Assembly: GCF_000003815.2 (NCBI RefSeq)
Contig: NC_049980.1
Span: 3,351,431-3,415,430, forward strand
Reading direction: 5' to 3'
DNA: 64,000 bases
Source: Branchiostoma floridae
Lineage: Eukaryota; Chordata; Leptocardii; Amphioxiformes; Branchiostomatidae
In this document: positions 45,301 through 48,300 of the stretch, in pieces
Numbering within the stretch: the first letter of the stretch is position 1
Layout: the number at the start of each line of letters is the position of its first letter
Notes under the pieces: generated by a model
What the model saw: only the letters and a program-made list of their open reading frames with translations
What the model was told of the DNA's origin: nothing
The model's database searches: none
Made by a program: the position numbers and the translations under genes

Positions 45301-48300
45301 CAAAGACACCAGGACGCAGGACTGTGAGAAAAAAAAAAAGAAAAGAAAAAAAAACAGTTTATTTAACACTGACATAGTACATACTAGTAAGTAAGTACTG
45401 ACATAATACGTACTACGGTAGTCTCAGGGCTCTAAATACTTTTTTCTGCATACTTGCACTAGTGCAGGTAACATTGAAAATTACCTGCACCACTATGAAC
45501 TTGGGAAGTATGGATCATACTAAAATTGTTGAGGAACCATTGCTATTTTCTCTTTATACTTTACGCTGTGGCTATTGACACACTCAGTGTCAGTGTTTCC
45601 GCCAGAGGGGCGTCCACCCGTCCATTGACGGTCTCATTTCGTTTTGGACGGCTGGAACGCAAGCAGAGGCCGTCCTCATAAAAAAAATGCGACCCACATT
45701 TTGCCGAGAAATCTGTACGAAAGTCGATAAATGTAAACCGCTGTTTTGTGTTTTGTATTGAAGCTAGACGCTTGGGGACGCCGTCCACAGCCAAAAAGCC
45801 GCTCACTGTTTGTTTTGCTATTGTTATGATTGTTGACAATGTGTGTCGGCGGCCTTTCACATACGATAATCTCATTAAAACCCGTTTTTCAAGGTCTCAG
45901 TTATGCGAATTTTCCCTGCCACATTTCGAAAACTTGGCGGTAGGTCGATCTCGCTATTACAATACAAACTAATAGTTGTTATTGGGAGAAATAACTTAAT
46001 GAGAAAACACACTAACTTTGTCTAGATATTAACAACTTTAGTCTCTGTTTTCATCATCAATCATCGTAAACAAAACAAAACACGATGATCAGAAACATGT
46101 GCCCACCGGGTGCTTGGCACGGGAAATCCCCAACCTCTTTCAAGTTCGTTATCGGCAACACAGCGGAAAAATAAAGTGTTCACAAAAGAGGTGATGGACG
46201 TAAAAAACATCAAGTATAACTTTGGTTCCTTTTTATATGAGTTTTGAGCCCGCAAAATCTCCGAAAACGGCAGAAATTTTCGGGATAAATACGCATCAAA
46301 AATGGCGGTCAGTAGCTGTTGTGTATCCTAGCCAATCACAGCGCTAGTTTCCTGTGACGTCGCTAGCTTTCCCAGATCTCGCGAGAAGTCACCACGTGAG
46401 ATTGCGGGATTTCGGCCGCCATTACCATTACGCTCACTGTCGCCGATAGACGATGTTATTCGTCATTTCTGAACGCAAATTTCTCGATCTATGGAAGGTT
46501 TTAGATGATTTATAAGTATACTACAACATAAAAGAGAATATATACAAATGCTATTTCTTTTTTGAAAGTCCAAGAACCGTTTCTAGAACTTTTTAAAAGC
46601 CGTAGTACCCGTTCGGTGCGGCATACCGGTACGCGGCACAGATCATAACACTTCGGCACTGAACTTAATCGGACGTTAGTTGTTTTGTTTTTTCTTGCGA
46701 CAGTTAACCATTAACTTTAATTTTCGCGATTTTACAATTAAATTTAATTTTCGCGGTTTTACAATTAAATTTAATGTTCGCGGTTTTGCAATTAAATTTA
46801 ATTTTCGCGGTTTTCGCGCCCCAAGGTGGACGGCCTCCCAGCTGAGGTCTGGCGGAAACACTGCTCAGTGTGCCAATAGCCAAACAGGCTATTGACACAC
46901 CGAGATGCCAGTCAGCCAATCAGAGCTTGTAACATGCCTTTCCGGCAATATTTTACACAAGCAATAGTTGATTAGACATTGTTCGGAAGATTAGACATTG
47001 GAATCTTTCGACTTGGAATGAACGGACGTATTCAAATTATGCCCTACATTTGGATACCTGTTAATACAACCTTCATCGTGCAAATTTGGTGTGGCTTAGT
47101 GGATAGAACGTTGACCCGGAAATTCATGATTACAGCTTCGACCCGGTTCGAGTCCGCGCCGGAGTTTTTTAAATTTAAAAAAAAAAATTTTTCTAGTCCC
47201 TTTTTAAACATCCATTTGATATAAGAATATTTTATATATAAACAACTTTTAAAGTTTCTGTTAACATCATAAACCAAAAATAACACTGACCACAAAACAT
47301 GTCATAATTTTCGGCCGTGTGGTTCCGGCGCTATCGGCAGCGACTCGGAAGAATATTTCTTTCACATTAAAAATAATGGAGGTAAAACAACAACTATAAC
47401 TTCGCTTCCTTCGTGATATAAGTTTTGAGGCCGCAAATTCTCCAATACGGCAGGAATTCGTCGGTAAACACAGCTGAAAACGTTTTCCTAACCGATCCAA
47501 CATGGCTGCCATGGAGCATCACATGCGGTGACAGTAAAACTAGCACCCTATATGATAGCAGATTCCGATGTTTAAAATTGTGCCGTAAACACGTGAAAAA
47601 GATCGTATTTTGGGTTGATAATGGACACAGGATGCCATTTGTATTTTTCAGAGTGTTGATTGTCAAATATAATCGTAAGATTTCCTCATTTTAGTGGTTT
47701 CTAGCACTGGGTGTGTCAATAGCCTAAACAGTCTATCGCCACACTGAGTGTGCCAATAGCCTAAACGGGCTATCGACACATTCAGTGTGTCAATAGCCTG
47801 TTTAGGCTATCGACACACTGGGTGTGTCAATAGCCTCGCTCTATACTTTATAGGTGGTAACAGTCAAAGCAGCTGATAACACCTACATAATAGGACATTT
47901 ATATACTAGGAGGAATTTCCAGCCCCGACTAGTACACTACATAACTTTGCTTTGAAGGGTGCGCATTTGCACGGCTTTGTGTTTGATGTGTAACAAAATC
48001 TTCATCTACTATTGTTCCATTTATATCAGGGTTCTCCCAAGAGAGTGGAATAAGGGAGGCCCTCCACTATACTCTCAGCCAGCTCCACTATACTATTTTT
48101 CAAATTTAGTGTTTCTCCCCTATTTTCTTTGTTAGTTTTGCTACAATTAATGACAATTCACAGATTTTTGTGCCAAGTGGCATCACTTTTCCAGTCAGCA
48201 TTGTCTGCAAAAACTTGTGAATGAGCAATGATCAAAACAATAGTCGTTTTGCCACTTCACAACAAAGGAATCACAACAGTTTATTATACTTGTAGTATTT

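Follow-up and report, generated by a model that had tools for sequence, protein, structure and literature searches.

The segment 45425-47927 is a real but ordinary nest of three dead, non-autonomous DNA transposons, and two of its three levels carry exact target duplications. The window, meaning the whole stretch of DNA that was analysed, is 64 kb long. The three elements are very probably cut-and-paste transposons lodged one within another: a MITE, then a Mutator/Foldback-like element, then a hAT-like element. The best reading of the levels puts the 5-bp-type MITE on the outside, the element with the 9-bp duplication (Mutator-size) in the middle, and the element with the 8-bp duplication (hAT-size) inside. 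Nested transposons are commonplace, and their chief use is as relative clocks. The interest of this nest is low to moderate; it rests on the middle element, whose ends suggest the Foldback branch of the Mutator family.

Architecture of the nest

The two inner levels are bounded by the following target duplications.

45555-45563: left copy of the 9-bp target duplication TATACTTTA, flanking the middle element
47842-47850: right copy of TATACTTTA, flanking the middle element
45583-45590: left copy of the 8-bp target duplication CTCAGTGT, flanking the inner element
46864-46871: right copy of CTCAGTGT, flanking the inner element

The sequence-only reading had described three levels, each with its own target duplication. 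The nesting was upheld, as were the duplications of the two inner levels; the claim failed at the outer level, where no 5-bp duplication surrounds the MITE and the flanks (AGTCT on the left, ACTAG on the right) are alike at only two of five positions. The 9-bp duplication that had been read at 45563/47842 is an exact pair of TATACTTTA. The 8-bp duplication and the ends of the inner element had also been read correctly: the CTCAGTGT pair is exact, and the ends are complementary at 16 of 16 positions. Exact 9-mer pairs spaced 2287 bp apart occur once among 61704 window positions, and this is the TATACTTTA pair itself; exact 8-mer pairs spaced 1281 bp apart occur twice among 62711 positions.

Removal of the inserts restored continuity at both levels. 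With 45564-47850 removed, the joined flanks gave one alignment to the MITE copies 22401-22747 and 6012-6379. It runs across the junction, which bears out the recognition of the outer element by its continuity with 22401-22747. With 45591-46871 removed, the left end of the middle element became continuous, and its terminal inverted repeat was restored over 58 columns (52 identities; 21 columns when unjoined). The alignment score of the left end against the right end was 82, versus 37 and 47 for the separate pieces. The two duplications, the two restored alignments and the element ends were thus observed directly.

The alignment scores locate the cuts less sharply than the duplications do. Two level-2 cut pairs lying one base off score 225, versus 223 for the pair adopted here. 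The top-scoring level-3 cuts cover all nine equivalent positions of the 8-bp duplication, and two cut pairs one base off this equivalence tie at the top score of 82. Because off-by-one cuts score equal or higher, the exact boundaries of levels 2 and 3 rest on the duplications.

Coding potential was examined in the nest frames of 40 aa or more, 34 in number, of which the eight longest were scanned against Pfam. No Pfam match up to E 1 was obtained in these eight. No MULE-domain transposase was found among them, as expected of a non-autonomous copy, and none of them gave a Pfam match to a hAT transposase. No transposase was recognised in the nest.

The middle element

The middle element and its parts are as follows.

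45564-47841: middle element, Mutator/Foldback-like, 997 bp without the inner segment 45591-46871, from the empty-site alignment
45564-45569, plus strand: left 6-bp tip CGCTGT, outside the inverted repeat
45570-45590, plus strand: left terminal inverted repeat, first piece, which goes on at 46872-46907
46872-46907, plus strand: left terminal inverted repeat, second piece
47705-47836: 37-bp unit, largely palindromic, tandemly repeated 3.6 times at the right end (Tandem Repeats Finder)
47779-47835, minus strand: right terminal inverted repeat
47836-47841, minus strand: right 6-bp tip, GAGCGA on the minus strand, outside the inverted repeat

The tips CGCTGT and GAGCGA are not inverted repeats of each other; inward of them, starting at base 7, both ends read GGCTATTGACACAC. 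About one and a half palindromic units were read directly at the left end, versus 3.6 at the right. The right-end array contains inverted arms of 51 nt, and 47705-47841 folds far better as a single strand than shuffled sequence (z -8.8), because the 37-bp units are largely palindromic. Six Rfam matches up to E 1 were obtained in the nest, all under the gathering score. Five were to microRNAs and covered 47716-47819, the best with E 2e-05 and 40.1 bits where the cut-off is 95; they are attributed to the palindromic array. A snoRNA match at 45460-45561 reached 22.5 bits against a cut-off of 44. The Foldback-type palindromic arrays, the 6-bp non-inverted tips, and the sequence common to the inner and middle elements are additions to the earlier description.

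The element had been called Mutator-like, and this is still its best reading. It has composite terminal inverted repeats with tandem units, a trait of Foldback-type MULEs, and its 9-bp duplication falls within the 8-11 bp range of MULEs (excerpt of PMC6446971). The Mutator label, based on duplication length and end anatomy, is likely, not proved, because Foldback-type ends occur with unrelated transposases (excerpt of PMC3169594). Alternatively, the element might be a Foldback-like member of a superfamily other than Mutator, such as the P superfamily, to which Drosophila Galileo belongs. This is rather unlikely: Foldback-type ends are indeed not diagnostic and accompany varied transposase classes, that of the P element Galileo included, but the duplication is of MULE length, and non-inverted tips outside the repeat have been recorded in other Mutator-like elements (excerpts of PMC3169594).

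The Mutator/Foldback-like reading can be compared with two known systems. Tm1, a Mutator/Foldback element of root-knot nematodes, has asymmetric 7-bp motifs inside 9-bp duplications and terminal repeats built from a variable number of about 14-bp units; its Tm1-A type encodes a Phantom-like MULE transposase (excerpts of PMC3169594). The middle element resembles Tm1 in its 9-bp duplications, in tandem units that are unequal in number at the two ends, and in the short non-inverted tips between duplication and repeat (7 bp in Tm1, 6 bp here). Tm1 likewise has non-coding, MITE-like members, some of which are interrupted by other transposons (excerpts of PMC3169594). However, the unit of Tm1 is about 14 bp, whereas that of the middle element is 37 bp and palindromic. 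The middle element also differs in having no known transposase-coding copy, and the likeness drawn here is one of anatomy. Tetris, a foldback element of Drosophila virilis, is similar in being non-autonomous, with tandem units in its terminal repeats and 8-10 bp duplications; it was suggested to be a Mutator element partly from these duplications (excerpts of PMC4079207). In contrast, the units of Tetris are about 220 bp long and its terminal repeats reach 1.7 kb, and the excerpts of PMC4079207 do not mention non-inverted tips such as those of the middle element.

The window yielded no second convincing copy of the middle terminus (of 15 matches, 10 lie inside the element; chance mean 5.4), and no other middle or inner element with both ends occurs in these 64 kb. 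The termini of the two elements had 0 exact-pattern matches each in the viral contigs scanned, which contain no animal genomes, and zero matches there carry little weight.

At 47092-47155, an A-box-like TGGCTTAGTGG and a perfect B-box word GGTTCGAGTCC precede an A/T-rich stretch, an arrangement known from tRNA-derived elements. A tRNA-derived insertion was considered at this place but not adopted, with no tRNA identified by ARAGORN and none in Rfam up to E 1.

The inner element

The inner element begins after the first 27 bp of the middle element, which agrees with its earlier placement.

45591-46863: inner element, hAT-like, 1273 bp, with the 8-bp duplication and perfect 16-bp inverted ends CAGTGTTTCCGCCAGA
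46710-46814, plus strand: AT-rich 27-bp unit repeated 3.9 times towards the right end of the inner element

The short inverted ends of hAT elements begin with CAGNG, and their targets tend to follow nTnnnnAn, although this is a tendency rather than a strict rule. The fully complementary ends of the inner element (end sequence CAGTGTTTCCGCCAG) start with CAGTG, and CAGTGTTTCCGCCAGA therefore fits the hAT start. The target CTCAGTGT has T at position 2 and G, not A, at position 7. The duplication length of 8 bp is the usual one for hAT elements (excerpt of PMC12730594). The inner element is therefore similar to the 8-bp type of hAT in its duplication and its short perfect inverted ends; it differs in the lack of a recognised transposase and of an A at position 7 of the target.

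The insertion lies near the centre of a restored 31-bp unit of the middle element, which is palindromic at 28 of 31 positions. Among four matches to the inner terminus in the window (up to 3 mismatches), two are its own ends, and no further convincing copy was found; the chance mean is 1.35. At 45583-45596, the target CTCAGTGT holds CAGTGT, the first six bases of the inner terminus, and the junction reads CTCAGTGTCAGTGT. This word is probably in the target by chance, because the array unit at 47781-47790 has the same word.

The outer element

The outer element is split into two parts.

45425-45563, minus strand: outer element (CAGGGCTC-type MITE), left part, which ends with the left copy of the 9-bp duplication
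47851-47927, minus strand: outer element, right part, internally deleted, with its terminus at 47908-47927

LanceleTn is a name of amphioxus MITEs; the literature search found no paper for this name. The nest's copy was compared with the MITE family of the window. On the left, 45425-45563 shares 79% identity over 160 columns with the reverse complement of 22588-22747, and 45424-45559 shares 70% identity over 173 columns with the reverse complement of 6209-6380. On the right, 47843-47881 shares 92% identity over 39 bp with 22557-22595. The full-length copies 6012-6379 and 22401-22747 share 81% identity, have perfect 5-bp duplications (ATATT and CAAGC, respectively), and contain the target in the MITE once, as ATACTTTA or GTACTTTA. 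Two CAGGGCTCGAAATAC elements, 20816-21170 and 22023-22384, are similar to these full-length MITEs near the termini only, at the BLAST threshold used. The former has the perfect 5-bp duplication GTAGC, and the latter the near-perfect AGTAT/TGTAT (4/5). Of the four other paired MITE copies in the window, three are thus flanked by a perfect 5-bp duplication and the fourth by one that agrees at 4/5 positions. The copy 22023-22384 is only 16 bp away from the copy 22401-22747.

The right part of the outer MITE is 77 bp long, versus 187 and 180 bp in the two full copies. Its homology to these copies ends near 47902, and beyond this point only the last 20 bp are recognisable; the longest gap separates this last good match from the terminus at 47908. 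This terminus (47908-47927) matches the family end at 16 of 20 positions. Counting both strands, the window has ten places that match the family end at no fewer than 15 of 20 positions, 47908 among them. The remaining nine are 22401 (the source of the query), seven termini of MITE elements, which include the left end of the nest's own outer copy, and 21984, a terminus-like sequence with no known partner. The outer level is recognised by homology, not by duplication, because the flanks are unlike and both the terminus and the alignment match the MITE family. Inspection by eye also weighed a shifted boundary with TAGT in common on the two sides; it was rejected because it needs two extra bases per end, which are absent from the siblings.

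The hAT5 group makes 5-bp duplications (excerpt of PMC12730594), and the window relatives of the outer MITE resemble it in their 5-bp duplications (three of four perfect) and CAGGGCTC ends. The nest's copy differs in having no duplication, and the comparison covers duplications and ends. The outer element is placed only in the MITE family of the window, not in hAT5, because its own 5-bp duplication is missing. The excerpts of PMC6004678 contain no passage on hAT5.

Order of insertion

A MITE of the CAGGGCTCGAAAT family would have been in place first. The 997-bp Mutator/Foldback-like element would have entered this MITE with duplication of 9 bp. The 1273-bp hAT-like element would then have entered the middle element 27 bp from its left end, near the centre of one palindromic end unit, with duplication of 8 bp; this insertion would have disabled the middle element. 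With no transposase recognised in the nest, the enzymes that moved all three elements were presumably encoded elsewhere.

The topology indicates that the middle element entered an existing MITE and that the inner element entered an existing middle element. The order MITE, Mutator-like, hAT-like had been proposed in the sequence-only reading; its first step stands on topology, and the third place of the hAT-like element is only likely. We infer this last step, as we do the superfamily labels and the source of the transposases. Arrival of the inner element after the middle element had landed in the MITE is likely, not proved, because the inner insertion cuts off the tip of the middle element from the remainder of that element's inverted repeat. 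A split terminal repeat is expected to impair transposase recognition. The hAT-like element might also have entered the Foldback-like element elsewhere, with the composite moving into the MITE in one step. The topology and the duplications fit this joint arrival equally well, but the left terminal repeat would already have been split 27 bp from its tip, and the possibility is accordingly a slight one. A nest produced by chance short repeats or by an assembly artefact is scarcely credible, for although a single assembly was used and no second haplotype or species was compared, the alignments are restored at both levels and the duplications lie exactly at the break points.

Modules shared between elements

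The inner and middle elements have in common a module of up to 300 bp, and the inner element has a further module in common with another hAT-like element of the window.

46000-46301, plus strand: shared module in the inner element, core 46147-46301
47217-47480, plus strand: shared module in the middle element, core 47329-47480
45760-45902, plus strand: module in the inner element, 92% identical to 19391-19537 of another hAT-like element

The cores were obtained with ordinary scoring, and the longer intervals with permissive scoring. The local score of the shared module was 99; the highest among 300 first-order random versions of the middle-element interior was 36. Stretches of 970 bp outside the nest, drawn from the first 60 kb of the window, also served as controls. 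Of these 56 stretches, 54 scored 32 or less; the remaining two scored 71 and 229 and are taken to be the BLAST relatives 43129-43186 and 19391-19537.

The module is probably non-coding, because the gaps in the alignment of the inner and middle copies are mostly of one or two bases and its frames have no Pfam match. The words ATGGCGG and ATGGCTGCC were noticed by eye shortly past the module end in the two elements; they may suggest that the module is a promoter or 5' leader. As a parallel, a frog hAT element carries part of the 5' leader of a gene, and 208 of 370 cases of sequence acquisition by DNA transposons were assigned to hAT; Mutator-like elements are described as rare in animals (excerpts of PMC8277862). 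A module carried by both a hAT-like and a Mutator-like element would represent an instance of animal DNA transposons acquiring sequence.

The hAT-like element at 19281-19586 is complete, with the 8-bp duplication ATGTACAG and the ends CAGGGCTCTAGCC / CAGGGCTTTAGCC. Its first eight bases are as in the 5-bp-type MITEs, yet it belongs to a different family. A diverged relative of the inner-element segment 45831-45972 lies at 43094-43245, with its best part (43129-43186) at 84% and no recognised element ends.

Possible significance in chordates

Evidence for Mutator-like elements in chordates is limited, with one sea-squirt sequence as the exception. Nine vertebrate reports of such elements are listed in Repbase, only three of them as autonomous, and an earlier report from the Florida lancelet, Branchiostoma floridae, could not be confirmed (excerpts of PMC6446971). 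In an amphioxus, the middle element would bear on this documented gap, and its 9-bp duplications and Foldback-type ends provide concrete termini for seeking a transposase. The words hAT, Mutator and nested are absent from the excerpts of PMC5802833, which deals with amphioxus transposons. No Foldback-type element in amphioxus was described among the literature matches listed, which consisted of titles and the starts of abstracts and covered few subscription papers. We tentatively propose, as a possibility short of an even chance, that, given an amphioxus host, the middle element might be what a Tm1-like Mutator/Foldback transposon has left behind in a chordate and that the promoter-like module it has in common with the hAT-like element might be the same acquired regulatory sequence in two superfamilies.

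Among seven long frames that were scanned, three have matches to C2H2 zinc-finger or rhodopsin-type receptor families, consistent with an animal genome. The open frames 6618-7238 (plus strand) and 54682-55116 (minus strand) have one 26-residue string in common, and a dispersed repeat is therefore likely at these two places. A perfect 34-bp inverted repeat is formed by 6564-6597 and 7041-7074.
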